DNA from: Roseovarius azorensis
GTDB taxonomy: Bacteria > Pseudomonadota > Alphaproteobacteria > Rhodobacterales > Rhodobacteraceae
Assembly (NCBI RefSeq): GCF_900109455.1
Contig: NZ_FOAG01000006.1
Span: 124,001 to 188,000, forward strand
Reading direction: 5' to 3'
Length of the DNA: 64,000 bases
The notes beneath the pieces were generated by a model, which made no database searches, was not told the DNA's origin, and saw nothing but the letters and a program-made list of their open reading frames with translations. The stretch's first letter is position 1, and each line of letters starts with the position of its first letter. Positions 21,163 to 31,809 of this stretch are shown one piece after another. Made by a program: the position numbers and the translations under genes.

Positions 21163-21188
21163 GAGGCCGGGGTGAACCCCGGCCTACG
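21163..21188. repeat. Hairpin repeat GGCCGGGGT-GA-ACCCCGGCC, copy A
   Basis: A 9-base perfect stem (21165-21173 with 21176-21184) with a two-base spacer, followed by TACG. It lies between the convergent peroxiredoxin and methyltransferase genes and covers the last base of the latter's stop codon. An almost identical copy is at 48173. It is a likely bidirectional terminator or mobile palindrome. Confidence 0.65.
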
Positions 21189-21795
21189 GGATGTGCGTGG
21201 CACGTCGGAAAACCGCCATCTGGCTAGCCCCGCCGAAGGTGGGATGCGTGCCGCCTATGTCATGGCAACTGACGTCATAGCCATGGCGCACGGCAATGCC
21301 TGTGGCCCATCGGGCAAATCTGTCGCGTCCCCATTCAAAGTGATGTCCCGGATGGCGATAGCGGTGCGCGGGTACGCCCAGCACCGGGTTGAAATCGGCG
21401 TTGGGCGTGGTGATGATCGCGTGGGCGGGCAGCATGTCGGCGAAGAGCGCGTGTTCCAGCCGGTTGAGATCGGCGGGTCGCAGATGTTCGATGGTCTCCA
21501 CGAGGCAGGCGCAATCGTAGCCGCGCAGCTTGGGGTGTGCGGCAGTTATCGAGGCATGGGCCAGTTGCACCTTGCCTCGGACGTCTCGCGGCAGCGCCCC
21601 AAGGCGGGCTTGCAGCGTGCTGAGCGATGCAAGGTCGATGTCCAGCCCGGTCAGGCGGGTGATCCGTGGTAGGGGCGCCAGCCGCAGGATCAGGTCGCCA
21701 TCGCCGCAGCCCAGATCGAGCAGGGTTCGTGCGCCGGTCTGTGTGATGGCCCGGATCACGGCCTCCAGCCGGTCGCGATGCAGGGGCGTGGTCAT
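21184..21795 (-). CDS. Stand-alone Hen1-like RNA 3'-terminal 2'-O-methyltransferase
   Basis: A 203-residue class I SAM methyltransferase. The SAM loop is LLDLGCGDGDL. The metal-binding set of Hen1 enzymes is present: Glu100, Glu103 and His104 in CLVETIEHL, and His151 in PGHHFEWGRDRF, together with the TTPNADFN strand. Hen1 enzymes methylate the 3'-terminal ribose of RNA. In bacteria Hen1 usually has an extra N-terminal domain and works with the repair enzyme Pnkp; both are missing here. The ATG overlaps the stop of the upstream methyltransferase (ATGA). The RNA target is unknown. Confidence 0.75.
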   Translation of the reverse strand: MTTPLHRDRLEAVIRAITQTGARTLLDLGCGDGDLILRLAPLPRITRLTGLDIDLASLSTLQARLGALPRDVRGKVQLAHASITAAHPKLRGYDCACLVETIEHLRPADLNRLEHALFADMLPAHAIITTPNADFNPVLGVPAHRYRHPGHHFEWGRDRFARWATGIAVRHGYDVSCHDIGGTHPTFGGASQMAVFRRATHIP

Positions 21796-22448
21796 GCGGC
21801 GGGCTTCTGCATCAGGACCACATCGTTGGCCGGTATGGTGCAGGACCAGCCGTGCGCCTGTGCGATCTGCCTGAATGTCCCGGCGCGGTAGAACACCACA
21901 TGCGTAGGATCCTTGCGGTAATGCCAGGCTCCGAAACGCGAGTCCTCGGTCTGAAAGCAGGTCATCACCGCCAGCCACCCACCGTGATTGAGCATTGCGC
22001 CCAGCCGGTCGAATTCGTCGGCGGGGTGGTGAAAATGCTCTGCTGTCTCGGTGCAGGTGATGAAGTCGTAGCGGTTCGTCAGTGGTGCGGGATCGGGATG
22101 AAAGAACGGATCATAGAGCGCCATGCGATAGCCTGCCTCGGTCAGCATGGCGGCAAGAGCGGGGCCGGGGCCACAGCCATAATCCAGTCCGCGCATCCCG
22201 GCCGTCAGCAGCGGCAGCAGTGGATCGGCGAGCCGTGACAGGAACCGGCGGTAGCCCGGATCGTGGATCTGGTTCTCGTGATGCAGGTAATGGGCGTGTT
22301 CCTGGGCCTTGTCGGGAAAATGCGCGGGATCGAGGCCCGTCGCCTCACAGCGGTCGCAGCGCCAATAGGCGCGCCCGTCGAACCGTCCGAAATGACGGGG
22401 ACCCGCGGCGCGGCAGACCGGGCAGGCGGGGGCTGTGGTGGACGTCAT
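21792..22448 (-). CDS. SAM-dependent methyltransferase with N-terminal zinc ribbon
   Basis: A 218-residue protein. CPVC (residues 9-12) and CDRC (31-34) form a zinc ribbon, followed by a Methyltransf_23-type domain: GLDYGCGPGPALAAML for SAM and DFITCTETAEHFHHP after it. The DPTHVVFY segment is conserved in this group, which includes enzymes of sugar, lipid and hypothetical substrates. It is the first gene of a pair with the Hen1-like enzyme. The substrate cannot be deduced. Confidence 0.82.
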   Translation of the reverse strand: MTSTTAPACPVCRAAGPRHFGRFDGRAYWRCDRCEATGLDPAHFPDKAQEHAHYLHHENQIHDPGYRRFLSRLADPLLPLLTAGMRGLDYGCGPGPALAAMLTEAGYRMALYDPFFHPDPAPLTNRYDFITCTETAEHFHHPADEFDRLGAMLNHGGWLAVMTCFQTEDSRFGAWHYRKDPTHVVFYRAGTFRQIAQAHGWSCTIPANDVVLMQKPAA

Positions 22449-22614
22449 GCGGGTGAGGTTTAAAGCATTTCCGGGGAATTGCCAGATGGGACGGCGCTCT
22501 TGGGACGAGAGGTCATTCGGTCACGCAGGATGATGACAGGCAGGAACCGGGCCGGCATGGACAGGCGCGCGGATATTGCCTAAGCCTGTGGGCGTGAGGC
22601 AGAGCGAGGACGCA

Positions 22615-23649
22615 ATGAACCGGCGCAAACCCTTTGAGATCAATGGCGGGGCGGTGATGCCGGGGACGCGGGCGCGGGTGGATATCCCGGTCAGTACGTT
22701 GTCCAATCACACGCCGGTCAACCTGTCGGTCGAGGTGCTGCACGGGCGGCGACCGGGTCCTGTGCTGTTCGTGTCGGCGGCGATCCACGGGGACGAGGTG
22801 ATCGGGGTCGAGATCATGCGCCGCCTGTTGCGTGCCGCCCCGCTCAGGACCATGGCGGGCACGTTGCTGGCGGTCCCCATCGTCAACACTTTCGGGTTTC
22901 TTGGTCATTCACGCTATCTGCCTGACCGGCGCGATCTGAATCGGGTGTTTCCGGGGGTGAGCGAGGGGTCGATGGCCTCGCAACTGGCGCATATCTTCAT
23001 GACGCAGGTTGTGGCACGGGCCGATGTCGGGGTCGATCTGCATTCGGCGGCGATCCATCGCACCAACCTGCCGCAGATCCGCCTGACGCCGGGCAATGCG
23101 CGACTGGAGGAGTTGGGCAGGGCGTTCGGCGCGCCGGTGATGATGGAGTCAAAGCTGCGCGAGGGGTCATTGCGCATGGCGGCCGAGACGGCGGGGGTGG
23201 ATGTGCTGCTCTATGAGGGCGGTGAGGGGTTGCGGTTCGACGAATTTGCGGTGCGCGCCGGGGTGAGCGGTATCCTGCGGGTCATGCACCATCTGAAGAT
23301 GATCGGCGGCAAGGGGGTGCCGAAGGCGCATGGCGTGCCGGTGCGCGCCGCGCGCTCGACTTGGTACCGGGCGCCGCGCGGAGGGCTGTTCCGGGGGTAT
23401 CTGGCGCTTGGCGATGCGGTGCAACCGGGCACGGTGCTGGGTGCGGTGGCCAATGCCTTTGGCGATGTCGAGACCGAACTGGTAGCCGATGTGACCGGCA
23501 TCATCATCGGGCGCAGCAATCTGCCAGTGGTCTATGAGGGGGATGCGCTGTTTCATGTGGCCGAGACCGCCCGCGCCGAGGCGGCGGCAGAGGGGATCAG
23601 CGCGCATCTCGAGGCCGCGCCGCTCTTTGACGAGGACGAGATCATCTGA
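22615..23649 (+). CDS. Succinylglutamate desuccinylase / aspartoacylase family protein
   Basis: A 344-residue zinc carboxypeptidase-like deacylase. The zinc ligands are His58 and Glu61 (AAIHGDEVIG) and His143 (VDLHSAAIH). RRDLNRVFPG is the substrate-binding segment, and a C-terminal beta domain follows. Members remove acyl groups from amino acids such as N-acetylaspartate, N-succinylglutamate or ectoine precursors; none is favoured by context. A gagga site supports the ATG at 22615. Its TGA shares a base with the next ATG. Confidence 0.88.
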   Translation: MNRRKPFEINGGAVMPGTRARVDIPVSTLSNHTPVNLSVEVLHGRRPGPVLFVSAAIHGDEVIGVEIMRRLLRAAPLRTMAGTLLAVPIVNTFGFLGHSRYLPDRRDLNRVFPGVSEGSMASQLAHIFMTQVVARADVGVDLHSAAIHRTNLPQIRLTPGNARLEELGRAFGAPVMMESKLREGSLRMAAETAGVDVLLYEGGEGLRFDEFAVRAGVSGILRVMHHLKMIGGKGVPKAHGVPVRAARSTWYRAPRGGLFRGYLALGDAVQPGTVLGAVANAFGDVETELVADVTGIIIGRSNLPVVYEGDALFHVAETARAEAAAEGISAHLEAAPLFDEDEII

Positions 23650-24362
23650 TGGCAGAACCAAGACGCACAATCGATATCAACGACATCGCGTTCGGAATCA
23701 TCCACACGCGGATGAGGCTGCATTTCATGGCCACCCCCAAGGGTGACCGAAGCGCGGTCAAATATTTTGTAATCGGCCATCCAAGAACCGGCACCACAAC
23801 GATGCACAAGCTGTTTGAGGCCAACGGGATCAACAGTTTTCACGATTCGCGCGACTGGCAGACCGGCAGATACGACGCGTTCTCGGATTTCGGGCAAGTG
23901 CGACCTGTCGCGGCCTATGACCGGGTCTATCCCAATGCGCGGTTCATCCTGAATTTCAGACCACTGCGTCATTATCTCAACAGCATCGCCACACATCATC
24001 AAAAGGTATTCAGCGTGCAGAATTTCATTAATGAAGCCCTGCGGCGGGCTGACTATTTCGCATGGGCGCTGGAGTATTTCCGAGGGCGGGACAATTTCAT
24101 CGCAGTGAATATCGAAGCGCCGGGAGCTGTTGCCGCAGTGGCGGATTTTTGCGGCTTTGCCGTGAAAGAACCGCCCGGCGGCGCGGTCAACAATGTCTCG
24201 AACCGGCCCAGATTCGCGCAGAACGCCGCCAATATCCAGGCCGCGCTGGAGGCGCTGGATATCGTCGAAGAGGCCGGGCGCGGTGTGCTGGTCTCGAAGT
24301 TGCACGGCACGCGGCAGGACACGCTGCGGGCCGCGCGCGATACGCTGCGGGTGGTGGAGTGA
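23649..24362 (+). CDS. Sulfotransferase-like protein
   Basis: A 237-residue protein with the 5' PAPS-binding loop YFVIGHPRTGTTTMHKLFE near residues 40-58 and an FILNFRPLRHYLNS segment like the 3' phosphate loop of sulfotransferases. It probably transfers sulfate to a metabolite or glycan, or is a related P-loop protein. Its base composition looks less GC-rich than its neighbours. It is coupled to the deacylase upstream (TGATG) and ends directly against the convergent membrane-protein gene. Confidence 0.75.
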   Translation: MAEPRRTIDINDIAFGIIHTRMRLHFMATPKGDRSAVKYFVIGHPRTGTTTMHKLFEANGINSFHDSRDWQTGRYDAFSDFGQVRPVAAYDRVYPNARFILNFRPLRHYLNSIATHHQKVFSVQNFINEALRRADYFAWALEYFRGRDNFIAVNIEAPGAVAAVADFCGFAVKEPPGGAVNNVSNRPRFAQNAANIQAALEALDIVEEAGRGVLVSKLHGTRQDTLRAARDTLRVVE

Positions 24363-25046
24363 TCAGGTCACCTGAGCGGCGTTGCGGGGCCGCAAAAAGA
24401 TCGACAGCGTCAGCAGGCTGAAGACAAGCTCGTAGGTTTCCCATTTGGTCATCAGCGGCACCGCCATGATCACGATGGTAGCGACAAGACCGAGGATCAT
24501 GTGACGGGTATCGGCGACCGGAATCGCCAGGCGATCCGCCAGTTGACGCAGCCGCGCCACGCGGGTGTAGAGCAGCGGCAGGACCAGCAGGTAGAGCAGG
24601 ATCACCACCGACAGCCCGCCGCCGAACACGGTCTTGACCAGCTTGACATCGCCGATCACCAGGTTGTGCAGATTGGTTTCCTGCTGGGCGTTGTTTTCGA
24701 GAAAGAACTCGCTGGCCTCCCAGTTGAACAGGCGGTAGCCCCAGGAGATTTCCTCGCCCGCGCCGAAAATGAAGAGAAGGCCGTAGAATCCGGTAATCAG
24801 CGCCGCCGCCTTGCCACGCCGCGCCCAAAGCACGCCAGCATTGCGCAGGAGCACCAGCGCCGACAGCAACAGGCAGACCGCCGTTCCCCATTCGACCGGC
24901 CCATCCTCGATGGCAAATCCGGTGCGGAATTCCTCGTGCAGGCCAATGACGTAATAGGCGATGGTGAAGATCAGGCTGGCATAGGCCAGACCGAAAAGCA
25001 CGACATCGGCATGGCTGAGATTGGAGCGTTCGTTGAGGCGGAGCAT
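24363..25046 (-). CDS. Uncharacterised membrane protein, GEEISWG family, paralogue 1
   Basis: A 227-residue protein with about six predicted membrane helices. Conserved blocks shared with the two genes that follow are IEDGPVEWGTA before helix 2, FGAGEEISWGYRLFNWE at the end of helix 3, ENNAQQETNLHNL in the loop after it, and KWETYELVFSLLTLSIFL at the C-terminus. The acidic GEE pair in or at the membrane and the invariant ETNLHNL loop look like an active or metal-binding site. I do not recognise a named family or function. It is third in the tandem set in the direction of transcription. A 17-base tandem repeat lies upstream. Confidence 0.8.
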   Translation of the reverse strand: MLRLNERSNLSHADVVLFGLAYASLIFTIAYYVIGLHEEFRTGFAIEDGPVEWGTAVCLLLSALVLLRNAGVLWARRGKAAALITGFYGLLFIFGAGEEISWGYRLFNWEASEFFLENNAQQETNLHNLVIGDVKLVKTVFGGGLSVVILLYLLVLPLLYTRVARLRQLADRLAIPVADTRHMILGLVATIVIMAVPLMTKWETYELVFSLLTLSIFLRPRNAAQVT

Positions 25047-25080
25047 GTCTTGGGCCTTTGGCAGATCAGGGTGATGGCAC

Positions 25081-25114
25081 GCGGTTACAGCATGTGCGCG
25101 GTTACAGCATGTGC
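25081..25114. repeat. Two perfect tandem copies of a 17-base unit
   Basis: GCGGTTACAGCATGTGC occurs twice in direct succession (25081-25097, 25098-25114), between membrane paralogues 1 and 2. It begins 35 bases upstream of the paralogue 1 start. It could be a recent duplication or paired regulator sites. Confidence 0.85.
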
Positions 25115-25157
25115 GCGGGTGCATCAAGCGGGTGCGGTTTCATGCGTTCTGCCGAGG

Positions 25158-25877
25158 TCACCTTTGGGGAGCATGCGCGGGTTGACGTTCTGATTTCGAC
25201 CTCGCGTGACGGGCGCGTCCGAAGACATGGGCGTTCTGCGGGTAGAGAAAGATCGACAGCGCGACGAGGCTGAAGATGAACTCGTAGACCTCCCATTTGC
25301 GTTGCAGGTCGACCAGCGCGATCACCCCCGAGGCCAGCAGCACCAGAACGGCATGGCGGTAGCCCGCGACGGGAATGGCCCAGTGGTCGGCGGTCTTTGC
25401 AACGGCGGGCATACGTTTGTAGATCAGAGTCAGCCCCACCAGCCAGAGCAGAAGCACCAGTGTCAGGATATTGCCGAACAGCACTTTGACCAGCTTTACC
25501 TCGCCGATCTTGAGATTATGCAGGTTGGTTTCCTCGCGGTGGCTGTTTTCGGTAAAGAATTCGCCGGCTTCCCAGCCGACGATGCGCTGCCCCCAGGAGA
25601 TTTCCTCGCCTGAGGCAAAGAAGAAGAGAAGCGCACCAAGCGCCATGATGGCCATTGCCGGTTTGCGCCCTGCACGGGCAAATCTGGCCGCATGTCGGGC
25701 TAGCACCAGGAAGGAAATGAAAAGAAGGATTGCTGTCGCCCATTCGGCGGGGCCGTCCTCGATCGCATAGACCGTATGGAAAAAATCCGTGCGCAGGAAA
25801 TGAAAGATGACAAGCGCGGTGATGTTAGCTGCGACGAGCGGCAGCAGAACACGGTCAAGAGGGGCATTGGCGGGCAT
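25158..25877 (-). CDS. Uncharacterised membrane protein, GEEISWG family, paralogue 2
   Basis: A 239-residue paralogue with about six membrane helices and the same blocks: IEDGPAEWATA, ASGEEISWGQRIVGWE, ENSHREETNLHNL and KWEVYEFIFSLVALSIFL. A charged tail (FGRARHARSKSERQ) after the last helix is not found in the other two. Upstream (25878-25985) is an AT-rich stretch that could carry its own promoter. No function is known; the strict conservation of the GEE and ETNLHNL blocks argues against simple decay. Confidence 0.8.
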   Translation of the reverse strand: MPANAPLDRVLLPLVAANITALVIFHFLRTDFFHTVYAIEDGPAEWATAILLFISFLVLARHAARFARAGRKPAMAIMALGALLFFFASGEEISWGQRIVGWEAGEFFTENSHREETNLHNLKIGEVKLVKVLFGNILTLVLLLWLVGLTLIYKRMPAVAKTADHWAIPVAGYRHAVLVLLASGVIALVDLQRKWEVYEFIFSLVALSIFLYPQNAHVFGRARHARSKSERQPAHAPQR

Positions 25878-25985
25878 TGGAGGGATCGGGCCTTTACGAA
25901 ACTGTTACTTCAATTTCATTGTTATGTCACAAATACCCCTCTGGCCAGTGCCGGAACGCGGGCCTTCCCGAATGTGATCGTGGTC

Positions 25986-26645
25986 TCAGCGGGTCTTGCA
26001 GCGGTTCACCGGCAGCAGAAAGATCGACGTGGTGATGATTGCGAAAATCAGCTCGTAGACCTCCCATTTGCGGGGCACGTCGACCGCAGCGATGACCAGA
26101 CTTGCAAGAAGCGCGAGCGCGGCATGGCGTAGCCCCGGCACGGGCACGGCAAGGGCATCTGCCAGACGTCGGATCAATGCGACGCGCGGATATGCAAGTG
26201 GCAGCACCACGAGATAGAGCAGCAGGACGGTGGTTAAAATGCTGCCGAAGAGAGTCCGGGCGAGCCGATGGTCGCCCACCATCAGATTGTGGAGGTTTGT
26301 CTCGCCCTGATAGTTGTTTTCAGCAAAGAAATCGCTGGCCTCCCAACCGAATATGCGCTGCCCCCAGGAGATTTCCTCGCCCGCCGCAAAAAAGAACAGC
26401 AGCGCATATAGTGCGGTCAGCCCAGTGGCCAGCCAGAGACCGCGCTGGCGCAGACTGAGCGCATTGCGGAAAAGCACGATGCTGGCCACCAGCAAAAACA
26501 GAGCCGTACCGTTTTCCACCAACCGGTCCTCGGCAGCGAAGGTGAGATGGAAATAATCCGGTGCCGTGACCGCGATGATCACGCTGGCGATCAATGTCAC
26601 GGCGATCAGGGCCATGAGCAGGCGATCAATGGTCTGGATGGTCAT
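25986..26645 (-). CDS. Uncharacterised membrane protein, GEEISWG family, paralogue 3
   Basis: A 219-residue paralogue, first of the three in transcription order, about 60 bases after the LOG-family gene. It keeps AAGEEISWGQRIFGWE, ENNYQGETNLHNL and KWEVYELIFAIITTSIFL. The block before helix 2 has diverged: AEDRLVENGTA in place of IEDGPxEWxTA, so the proline and tryptophan are lost. This suggests a changed role for one copy. I chose the ATG at 26645, preceded by agaggcacgg; a start at 26681 is possible. Confidence 0.78.
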   Translation of the reverse strand: MTIQTIDRLLMALIAVTLIASVIIAVTAPDYFHLTFAAEDRLVENGTALFLLVASIVLFRNALSLRQRGLWLATGLTALYALLFFFAAGEEISWGQRIFGWEASDFFAENNYQGETNLHNLMVGDHRLARTLFGSILTTVLLLYLVVLPLAYPRVALIRRLADALAVPVPGLRHAALALLASLVIAAVDVPRKWEVYELIFAIITTSIFLLPVNRCKTR

Positions 26646-26706: not shown

Positions 26707-27540
26707 TCAACCCATATCGGTGGTTTGGTTTCCGGGCCAGTTGTTGATGATCTCCATTGCCTCATCGGCGGTTTCGACAAAGCGGAAGAGGTCGAGATCC
26801 TCGTCGCTGATCGTGCCGGACTGGGCCAGCGCGTCCCAGTTTATGATCGAGCGCCAGAACGATTCTCCGAAGAGCAGGAACGGCACGCGCGCCATGCGAT
26901 CGGTCTGGATTAGGGTAAGAGCCTCGAATGTCTCGTCCAGTGTGCCAAAGCCGCCGGGAAAGACGCAGACCGCGCGGGCGCGCATCAGGAAATGCATCTT
27001 GCGAATGGCGAAATAGTGAAAGTTGAAGCACAGGCCGGGTGTCACGTATTCGTTCGGGGCCTGCTCATGCGGCAGCACGATGTTGAACCCGATCGAGGCT
27101 CCGCCTGCATCTGCCGCCCCGCGGTTGCCTGCTTCCATCACGCCGGGGCCGCCGCCGGTGGCCACGACGAATTCGCGCCCGTAGGTGGCCATGGATTTTT
27201 CGGTTATCAGGCGGGCGAATTTGCGCGCCTCGTCGTAATAGCGCGACAGGTCAGCCAGTGTCCCGGTGCGCGCCGTGTCCTTCTGGGACGGTTCGGGAAT
27301 GCGCGAGCCGCCAAAGAGGACGACGGTGCTCTTTATGCCGCGCTCGTTCAGGATCATCTCGGGTTTCAGGAGTTCCAGTTGCAGGCGCACCGGACGCAGC
27401 TCATCCCGGCAGAGAAAATCCGGATCGGCAAAGGCCAGACGGTAGGCGGGTGCACGGGTCTGGGCGGTGTCGGGCACCTGTTCGGCGGTGGAGCGGTCCG
27501 AACCGGCATCGCGGAATTGGCTGAGGCGGTCGTCTTTCAT
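26707..27540 (-). CDS. LOG-family protein (TIGR00730-like nucleotide hydrolase)
   Basis: A 277-residue Rossmann-fold protein. The family signatures are VATGGGPGVMEAGNRGA and VFPGGFGTLDETFEAL. Proven LOG enzymes cleave the base-ribose bond of nucleoside 5'-monophosphates (cytokinin riboside monophosphate in plants, AMP in bacteria). An N-terminal extension of about 70 residues before FGGSRIPEP is usual for the larger bacterial type. An aaggatcgcc site supports the start. It is first in a leftward set with the three membrane paralogues; no functional link is known. Confidence 0.88.
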   Translation of the reverse strand: MKDDRLSQFRDAGSDRSTAEQVPDTAQTRAPAYRLAFADPDFLCRDELRPVRLQLELLKPEMILNERGIKSTVVLFGGSRIPEPSQKDTARTGTLADLSRYYDEARKFARLITEKSMATYGREFVVATGGGPGVMEAGNRGAADAGGASIGFNIVLPHEQAPNEYVTPGLCFNFHYFAIRKMHFLMRARAVCVFPGGFGTLDETFEALTLIQTDRMARVPFLLFGESFWRSIINWDALAQSGTISDEDLDLFRFVETADEAMEIINNWPGNQTTDMG

Positions 27541-30711: not shown

Positions 30712-31809
30712 ATGGGCTGGATCGGAATATTGGAACAGGCGGGCGGGCGGTTCGAGCCGGAAGGGCTGGGCGCGGATCGCCCGGTCGGGCCGGACAGGCC
30801 ACTGGAGGCGGGGATCGCCCTGATGCCGCGCGGCACTTTGATGCTGGAGGCGCGGTTGTCGCAGGAGGACCGGCCGCAGACGCTGCTGGCCTTTGGCCAG
30901 CGCCTTCCCTGGGTCGAGGAGGTTTCGATCCGGGCTTTGCCCGGGGGTGGGATCGTTCTGGTTCTCACACAGGCGGGGGACATGCGCCATGTCACGCTGC
31001 CTTATCAACCCGATGACCGGACGGATATCATCCGCCTGAGTTTCTGCTGGGATGCGCCCGCGCAATGGGGACGGCTGGTGTTGGAGCGGCCCGAGACGGA
31101 CCACGTGCATTGCGTCACCCTGCCGATGCCCCGCCCGCTGCCGGTGCCCATGATGCAGGCGATGCTGACCGATCCGCAACAGCGCGAGATGGACCGAGAG
31201 GTGATCTTTGTCGCGCTGTCCTCAAAGGTCGAGCCGGTAGGCCCGTTGCCAGGTCTTTGTGTCAACGCGCCGGTTCTTACACCTCGCGGCTATGTGCCGA
31301 TCAGCCGGATCCGGCGTGGCGATCAGGTCGAGACCGACGGTGCGGAGCCCGTGCCGGTTTTGCGGGCGATTGCGCGACGAGTGCCCGGATATGGCAGTTT
31401 CCGCCCCGTGCGGTTGCGCGCACCTTATTTCGGGTTGCGGCAGGATATCGTCGTCAGCCCGCAGCAGCGGCTGGTGATCCGGGGATCGGAGGTCGAGTAT
31501 CTCTTTGGCTCCGAGGCGGTGCTGGTCCCGGCGCGCCATCTGGTCAACGGACTCTCGGCGCAATTGGCGGATGCCCCGCCGGTGGTCACCTATCACCACT
31601 TGCTCTTGCCGGGGCATGAAGAGATCATCGCCGCAGGCACCCGCACCGAGAGTCTTTATGTCGGACGGCTGCGCCGCAACCGCGACCTTCTGGCAGCAAG
31701 CTGGCTGGCCGGTTTCGACCGCGCGCGCCTGCCCGAACACCCAAGGCCGGTCTGGCCGGTGCTGAGGCCCTATGAGGCGATCACGCTGGCGATGAATCGG
31801 GCGGCTTGA
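30712..31809 (+). CDS. Hint (Hedgehog/intein) domain protein
   Basis: A 365-residue protein. The N-terminal ~180 residues have no clear family. Then a Hint_2-type domain begins at LCVNAPVLTPRGYVPISRIRRGD, with VSPQQRLVI and TYHHLLLPGHEEIIA further on. In inteins these blocks carry the nucleophilic cysteine and the catalytic histidine; the histidine block here is HHLLLPGHE. Such Hint proteins are abundant in Rhodobacterales and are thought to self-cleave at the Cys, but their targets are unknown. The start is supported only by a distant gggggtg. Confidence 0.78.
   Translation: MGWIGILEQAGGRFEPEGLGADRPVGPDRPLEAGIALMPRGTLMLEARLSQEDRPQTLLAFGQRLPWVEEVSIRALPGGGIVLVLTQAGDMRHVTLPYQPDDRTDIIRLSFCWDAPAQWGRLVLERPETDHVHCVTLPMPRPLPVPMMQAMLTDPQQREMDREVIFVALSSKVEPVGPLPGLCVNAPVLTPRGYVPISRIRRGDQVETDGAEPVPVLRAIARRVPGYGSFRPVRLRAPYFGLRQDIVVSPQQRLVIRGSEVEYLFGSEAVLVPARHLVNGLSAQLADAPPVVTYHHLLLPGHEEIIAAGTRTESLYVGRLRRNRDLLAASWLAGFDRARLPEHPRPVWPVLRPYEAITLAMNRAA

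Follow-up and report, generated by a model that had tools for sequence, protein, structure and literature searches.

A family of six-helix membrane proteins with a strictly conserved site, triplicated in Roseovarius azorensis, and its possible role in envelope glycolipid chemistry

Why should a bacterium carry, side by side, three related genes for a membrane protein of no named family, and what might such a protein do? The question is raised by a 64,000-nucleotide stretch of the Roseovarius azorensis genome (assembly GCF_900109455.1, contig NZ_FOAG01000006.1, positions 124,001 to 188,000 of the forward strand; referred to here as the window), in which three minus-strand genes encoding proteins of about 220 residues follow one another: P0003 or paralogue C (25986..26645, 219 residues), P0002 or paralogue B (25158..25877, 239 residues) and P0001 or paralogue A (24363..25046, 227 residues). 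The proteins are 47-52% identical in pairwise comparisons, and P0002 retrieves P0003 and P0001 from its own genome with E values of 8e-64 and 6e-59, respectively. The motifs GEEISWG, ETNLHNL and KWE[TV]YE are present in all three, the residue that follows GEEISWG being a tyrosine in P0001 and a glutamine in P0002 and P0003. The start of P0003 was placed at the ATG at 26645, the open reading frame (ORF) continuing to a TTG at 26780, and a fourth member of the family (C42:149771-150424) lies on another contig of the same genome. Our answer, offered tentatively as a serious possibility suggested by the sequences, is that these are periplasm-facing, probably metal-dependent enzymes that would act on a glycolipid or lipid-linked sugar in the outer leaflet of the inner membrane. 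The link to the envelope has moderate support; the chemistry is conjecture.

The AlphaFold2 model of P0002, the numbering of which is used throughout, was obtained with a predicted local distance difference test score (pLDDT) of 92 and a predicted template-modelling score (pTM) of 0.86, and comprises six long helices (residues 8-28, 43-68, 72-93, 129-155, 173-188 and 194-211), with GEEISWG ending the third. Across 97 aligned sequences, E40, D41, E45, L52, G90, E91, E92, S94, W95, G96, R98, H120, N121, F134, P169, E196 and E199 are invariant; in a 124-member set that includes fragments, E40, D41, E45, E91, E92, S94, W95, R98, H120, N121, E196 and E199 are each kept in 122-123 sequences, and position 175 is a histidine in 117. 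This conservation extends to 27 distant homologues, selected by a filter that required E91, [SA]94 and W95, in all of which E45, E92, Q97, E116, H120, E196 and E199 are present, with N121 retained in 26 and E40 in 21. Six entries that lack the E..[SA]W motif, representing four distinct proteins (among them L130, with a tyrosine at W95), were dropped from this set together with the broken pieces of locus L114 described below, and the set is related to the family with a profile-profile probability of 99.9%. On the model, E40, D41 and E45 are placed at the top of helix 2, E91, E92, S94, W95 and Q97 after helix 3, E116, H120 and N121 in the loop that follows, and E196 and E199 at the top of helix 6, such that the acidic, histidine and asparagine residues gather on one face of the protein. 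In segments chosen by us from the model, lysine and arginine are commoner on the opposite face in each of the 97 sequences (means of 10.2 versus 5.0) and, in accordance with the positive-inside rule, the conserved site is therefore predicted to face the periplasm. Persistence of the acidic, histidine and asparagine residues to remote homologues fits a catalytic or a metal- or lipid-binding site, as had been supposed in a first-pass annotation of the window made from its sequence alone.

The family is unnamed in Pfam, NCBIfam and PADLOC, and is new in the limited sense of being unassigned by sequence. No Pfam family matched P0001 or P0003 at an E value of 1, and P0002 gave only matches below the cut-offs to Ninjurin (12.2 bits; cut-off 26) and TgpA_N (9.4 bits; cut-off 30). 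When 97 relatives were scanned singly, no Pfam family had more than three matches at an E value of 0.1 (25 of the 28 families listed). The sole NCBIfam match, NF033207 to P0002, scored 10.5 bits against a cut-off of 45, no PADLOC family matched P0001, P0002, P0003 or the adjacent gene product P0004 at an E value of 1, and a profile of the family found no match at the same value among sequences in the PDB. Structural comparisons were similarly unproductive: a Foldseek search of the PDB returned nothing at an E value of 0.001 or better, the best match being a ferritin (E value 0.47), the best VIA-align match was a seven-transmembrane (7TM) receptor with a Z score of 7.4, within the stated noise for helical bundles, and a BFVD fold search gave nothing at an E value of 0.001. 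The ferritin and 7TM likenesses, with a template-modelling score of about 0.25 and a Z score of at most 7.4, respectively, were treated as noise; the absence of fold matches is no proof of a new fold. An origin as a phage or defence gene was rejected on the basis of the PADLOC and BFVD results and of the lack of any relative in phage records or viral contigs, where 20 stretches fitted a pattern and none was a relative. The strings 'GEEISWG' and 'EEISWGQR' occurred in no paper in the literature searched, and none of the titles listed concerned the family in the literature on LAB_N/ArnT, on flavobacterial or Arenibacter lipid A, or on Roseovarius lipid A. The description given in the first-pass annotation, of three tandem homologues with three common motifs (the last written there as KWExYE), six helices and no named family, thus agrees with these results.

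A quick tree of 134 members placed the three window copies in three separate groups, each with relatives from other Roseovarius species, for which reason the copies look older than the species that carry them, as judged from the sequences; the fourth copy joins single-copy members (support 98). Clade C is supported at 95 (twelve rows) and clade B at 97 (six rows), or 94 with two more, while clade A reaches only 85 (ten rows), the copy of locus L040 lying just outside it. Each group departs from the family at its own positions. P0001 carries a tyrosine at the otherwise conserved Q97, and 10 of 11 clade A members have a tyrosine, phenylalanine or histidine there, L043 keeping the glutamine. P0002 has a serine at N112 and an arginine at Q114, a combination present in all eight clade B members. 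P0003 is canonical at these three positions and has an arginine at G42 and an asparagine at W46; in clade C, position 42 is arginine or histidine in 9 of 12 members and position 46 is asparagine in 10 of 12. Among the 134 members, 18 copies are changed at Q97, N112 or Q114; all 18 are in tandem arrays, and no such change is present in 103 single copies ('single' meaning that no second copy lies within 1 kb in the stretch examined). All 11 clade A and all eight clade B members lie in arrays. Since the 18 copies come from two clades, they represent about two origins, and the Fisher value of 2e-14 obtained for the contrast is for this reason no valid probability. Each of the six genomes with a B copy also has a copy canonical at Q97, N112 and Q114, either in the same array (the window, L037 and L040) or elsewhere in the assembly, as recognized from contig names (L041 with L078, L045 with L080 and L042 with L112). 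The glutamate, aspartate, histidine and asparagine core is intact in P0001, P0002 and P0003, and ratios of nonsynonymous to synonymous substitution rates (dN/dS) of 0.10-0.27 in nine comparisons of window copies with orthologues make all three look to be under purifying selection. As different positions have changed around an intact acidic and histidine core, divergence of the paralogues in substrate or partner is suggested; we infer that Q97, N112 and Q114 surround the site and would set the substrate or partner rather than the chemistry itself.

The family is widespread in Roseovarius, sporadic in other Rhodobacteraceae and recurrent in Flavobacteriaceae. Besides R. azorensis itself, 29 of 35 same-genus genomes carry it, and a single distant match outside the family brings the total to 31 of 60 genomes. 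In a family-level sample it was found in 11 of 295 genomes (including R. azorensis and one of the same genus, and two with only distant matches), and in a phylum-level sample in 6 of 398, all except R. azorensis being distant. Matches at an E value of 1e-4 were obtained in 33 of 199 Flavobacteriaceae genomes, 17 of which reach 1e-40 or better and are referred to here as close members; a Bacteroidota sample yielded 6 of 296 genomes, the centre genome included. One copy each was found in twelve genomes behind flavobacterial and other loci, and four conjugative Roseovarius plasmids hold one copy each, annotated as a hypothetical protein; a reading of the family as a mobile gene was considered and not retained. 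On two conjugative Roseovarius plasmids (L218, NZ_CP045411.1, and L219, NZ_CP031599.1), genes for two L,D-transpeptidases and for a cation P-type ATPase occur in the vicinity of the single copy, with copper-resistance genes following in L218. Tandem arrays occur in 8 of 36 Roseovarius genomes, most copies being single and often having other neighbours. The diversified system that the first-pass annotation read into the array is thus borne out in that its copies fall into separate clades common to other species, and is qualified in that arrays are exceptional. In Roseovarius sp. FR_34 (L114, 8090-9340) an intact copy is accompanied by a second tandem copy that is split between two reading frames, as would result from the decay of an array copy or from a sequencing error.

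Evidence on function comes mainly from gene neighbourhoods, examined in 80 loci that represent the best 80 of at least 533 relatives and in which genes were called by longest-ORF rules. Among them, 38 are from Bacteroidota (48 rows less 10 Pseudomonadota rows; contig ends are included), with the usual order MeaB, GT2, LAB_N, PMT_2 and family gene, then convergent PAP2 and MatE. The ArnT-like PMT_2 gene is directly upstream of the family gene in 30 of these loci, separated from it by 12 bases or fewer in 23 of the 30 and overlapping it by four bases in 12, and the convergent PAP2 gene is found downstream in 32 of the 38. The nearest NCBIfam models are ArnC for the GT2 protein, ArnT for PMT_2 and undecaprenyl-diphosphatase for PAP2, all matched far below their cut-offs. 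In the 199 Flavobacteriaceae genomes, counted by eye, 14 of the 17 with a close member have LAB_N, versus 67 of the 182 others; 13 of these 14 carry it less than 5 kb from the family gene, and in the last one the two are on different contigs. Of ten operons that lack the family gene, eight (all except L220 and L224) have GT2 adjoined by a gene for an NAD-dependent epimerase, these ten having been taken from near the top of the list of 67 LAB_N genomes without a close member, with some skipped and phylogeny uncontrolled; when the family gene is present in LAB_N loci, such an epimerase adjoins GT2 in 1 of 31 (L101), and L081 has one about 7 kb away. It is as if the family gene and a sugar-nucleotide epimerase provided alternative sugar chemistries in flavobacterial operons.

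This gene order resembles three-component transmembrane glycosylation as described in excerpts of PMC8035078 and PMC11127046, in which a GT-A synthase of an undecaprenyl phosphate (Und-P)-linked sugar, a flippase and a GT-C glycosyltransferase act together (Gtr, CsbB/GtcA/YfhO and Arn systems): GT2, LAB_N and PMT_2 genes lie upstream in most of the Bacteroidota loci seen, and we infer that LAB_N is the flippase. The family protein differs in that neither LAB_N nor PMT_2 resembles it by profile, and in that it occurs also without them, as in R. azorensis; hhalign comparisons of the family with PAP2, LAB_N, PMT_2, MatE and sulfatase-fold transferases gave probabilities of 0.94, 0.09, 0.15, 0.38 and 0.16%, respectively. 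A possible product is indicated by Cellulophaga pacifica, the lipid A of which, according to excerpts of PMC11065906, is phosphorylated at position 1 and has its 4' phosphate replaced by a D-mannose disaccharide. A locus from a Cellulophaga sp. (L110) holds the full row of GT2, LAB_N, GT-C and family genes, which makes lipid A mannose of this type a plausible product of the operon; on the other hand, those excerpts tie the mannose to no gene, and two other Cellulophaga loci (L098 and L103) have GT2 and the family gene without adjoining LAB_N and GT-C genes.

Two Pseudomonadota loci from metagenome-assembled genomes (L099 and L109) have a phosphoglycerol-transferase-like gene of the sulfatase fold directly downstream of the family gene. 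Around the distant homologues, where genes were named by inspection of their sequences, glycosyltransferase or polysaccharide genes were judged by eye to lie nearby in about 10 of 25 loci (L138, L141, L198, L200, L205, L207-L210 and L215); in L138, the remote homologue lies directly 5' of two ORFs of about 510 residues resembling PMT-type glycosyltransferases on the same strand, with an epimerase-like ORF behind. Pfam GT2 domains were found in 10 of 140 neighbours of distant homologues in the 25 loci, versus 2 of 117 proteins in 20 control stretches, each taken from one of the distant-homologue genomes. A flavobacterial locus (L210, 4795-7015) has three tandem, distantly related copies inside a glycosyltransferase cluster, a triplication that looks independent of the Roseovarius arrays. 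Two further ORFs were observed beside family genes. L205, L207, L209 and L210 each have, next to the distant homologue and convergent with it, an ORF of about 215-226 residues that looks membrane-like by eye, and the one scanned (L210:4137-4811) has no Pfam match. In two Rhodobacteraceae (L149, 7051-7665, and L150, 6206-6802), a protein of about 200 residues, likewise with no Pfam match, is encoded directly upstream of the family gene and is a possible partner of the family protein.

The role that we propose is that of a six-helix inner-membrane protein whose cluster of carboxylate, histidine and asparagine residues would face the periplasm and, probably with the help of a metal, would hydrolyse or transfer a lipid head group in the outer leaflet of the inner membrane, the putative substrate being either a glycolipid of the envelope, for example lipid A, or a sugar linked to a polyprenyl carrier. 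In Flavobacteriaceae this activity would usually go together with an operon encoding LAB_N, an ArnT-like GT-C enzyme and a synthase of an Und-P-linked sugar; in R. azorensis the enzyme would act without LAB_N or a PMT_2 glycosyltransferase. Duplication would have given rise to three copies in which the cluster was kept and different surrounding positions changed, most simply read as different specificities for substrate or partner.

Several observations weigh against this proposal. The R. azorensis genome has no match to LAB_N (PF07578) or PMT_2 (PF13231) at an E value of 1e-3, the same searches giving matches in 2 and 10, respectively, of 14 control genomes, and no glycan gene was recognized beside the array in the window. 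Three of the 17 close-member Flavobacteriaceae (G761, G894 and G929) lack LAB_N and have no neighbour-profile matches, and many alphaproteobacterial relatives have no evident glycan neighbour. The loci cannot be counted as independent, Arenibacter alone supplying 11 of the 12 cases of a four-base overlap with PMT_2, and the excess of GT2 domains near distant homologues rests largely on four similar loci (L205, L207, L209 and L210), the control set also containing two GT1 proteins. Arenibacter certesii, with the full operon row in L090, has according to excerpts of PMC4052302 a core containing galacturonic acid and lipid A with phosphate at both C1 and C4', which argues against a lipid A sugar in this organism and leaves the core or a different lipid as the target. 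None of the Foldseek, VIA-align or BFVD searches gave a fold match indicating an enzyme class, the invariant P169 and near-invariant H175, at the start of helix 5 on the opposite face, are unexplained, and the conserved acidic cluster would suit cation transport too.

Among the other explanations, the one that survives best, albeit as an unlikely one, is that of an accessory subunit to ArnT-like GT-C glycosylation. The position of the family gene directly after an ArnT-like gene in so many Bacteroidota loci would be accounted for, and excerpts of PMC8035078 allow for systems of more than three proteins and speculate that small GT-C enzymes need a partner for acceptor recognition. However, the window's genome contains neither LAB_N nor PMT_2, the three flavobacterial members just mentioned are found apart from such genes, and LAB_N is present in 67 of the 182 genomes without a close member. 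Since these genomes lack such partners, the protein must be able to work without them, and it is for this reason that a lipid enzyme is preferred; moreover, an accessory subunit would be unlikely to keep so many acidic residues, a histidine and an asparagine unchanged.

Next in order, and improbable, is a divalent-cation or proton transporter or sensor, for which the acidic cluster would be an ion site and the glycan neighbours incidental. A group of six to eight conserved carboxylates on a single face of the membrane would be in keeping with such a function, as would the cation P-type ATPase found near both of the Roseovarius plasmid copies inspected and the copper-resistance genes near one of them; yet none of the invariant charged residues is placed deep enough in the helices to form a transmembrane path, the recurrent position behind ArnT-like genes would be left unexplained and the plasmid regions also carry L,D-transpeptidases, which are envelope genes. 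Lower still in our estimation is a lipid-moving function, in which the protein would flip or recycle undecaprenyl phosphate or a lipid-linked sugar. The glycan contexts are compatible with this, as is the compact helical build with its conserved polar residues at the edge of the membrane, but the operons already have a candidate transporter in LAB_N, which shows sub-threshold SWEET-type similarity, the conserved polar cluster is on one face only, and a mostly acidic site would be an odd phosphate site without a metal.

The motifs of the glutamic intramembrane proteases of the Rce1/CPBP kind (PF02517) are EExxxR and HxxxN. That the family belongs to these proteases is very improbable: the likeness of a compact helical membrane protein with an EE pair followed by R98, H120 and N121 is superficial, the spacing (EExxxxxR and an adjacent HN), the glycan context and the predicted periplasmic site all differ, and hhalign gave a probability of 0.3% against 30 ORFs picked by motif from PF02517 loci, as opposed to 99.9% for a positive control that was an easy one, consisting of distant relatives that the profile of the family had itself retrieved.

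Around the array, the minus-strand gene for the LOG-family protein P0004 (26707..27540) is co-directional and ends 61 bases upstream of P0003, the coordinates giving gaps of 61, 108 and 111 bases along the row from LOG through P0003 and P0002 to P0001. P0004 matches PF03641 with 104 bits (cut-off 27) and TIGR00730 with 92.5 bits, just under the cut-off of 96.35, so the LOG assignment of the first-pass annotation is sound; it is P0004 alone, a neighbour of the array, that is like the LOG family (resembling cytokinin riboside 5'-monophosphate phosphoribohydrolase). The association stressed in that annotation does recur, in 7 other Roseovarius loci among the 80, and is confined to clade C (P0003-type) copies, for which reason LOG was rejected as a functional partner. 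At the 3' end of the array lies a convergent sulfotransferase-like gene on the plus strand (23649..24362), the cluster of which flanks 7 of the 80 loci and directly adjoins the family gene in 4 of these. An AstE/AspA-like deacylase gene (22576..23649) is likewise on the plus strand, and its cluster flanks 21 of the 80, all in Rhodobacteraceae; both are neighbours and were not assigned to the system. Promoter-like sites were as frequent as expected (1 found versus 1.0), terminator-like sites exceeded expectation (8 versus 2.9), several of them overlapping and inside genes, and an Rfam scan of the window gave no match.

Elsewhere in the window, a minus-strand ORF at 21184-21978 encodes a short Hen1-like RNA 2'-O-methyltransferase that matches TIGR04074 with 191.9 bits (cut-off 340) over model positions 257-462 of 462, corresponding to the C-terminal part of bacterial Hen1, and overlaps a methyltransferase-like ORF at 21792-22448 (PF13489). 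A plus-strand gene at 30712-31809 encodes a Hint-domain protein (PF13403, Hint_2; 111 bits, residues 183-318), the N-terminal part of which matches no Pfam family at an E value of 1e-3.

A broader claim, which we regard as doubtful enough to be only suggested here, is that the family represents a new superfamily of periplasm-facing membrane enzymes of glycolipids or lipid-linked sugars, present in Bacteroidota and Pseudomonadota, of which a tandem set evolved in Roseovarius. The putative catalytic cluster would have been kept in each copy, with paralogue A changed at Q97, B at N112 and Q114, and C at G42 and W46, all positions that hardly vary elsewhere, and the three paralogues may assemble into a hetero-oligomer or serve as a set of enzymes that differ in their lipid substrates. 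What the family offers is a strictly conserved and probably catalytic membrane site that is common to two phyla and unnamed in the family libraries searched, together with a genomic position that gives it a first testable role, in outer-leaflet chemistry of glycolipids or lipid-linked sugars near ArnT-like glycosyltransferases. If this role is true, an unrecognized part of envelope modification in marine bacteria would have come to light, and the Roseovarius arrays would constitute a natural experiment in the release of positions around an intact active site after duplication.

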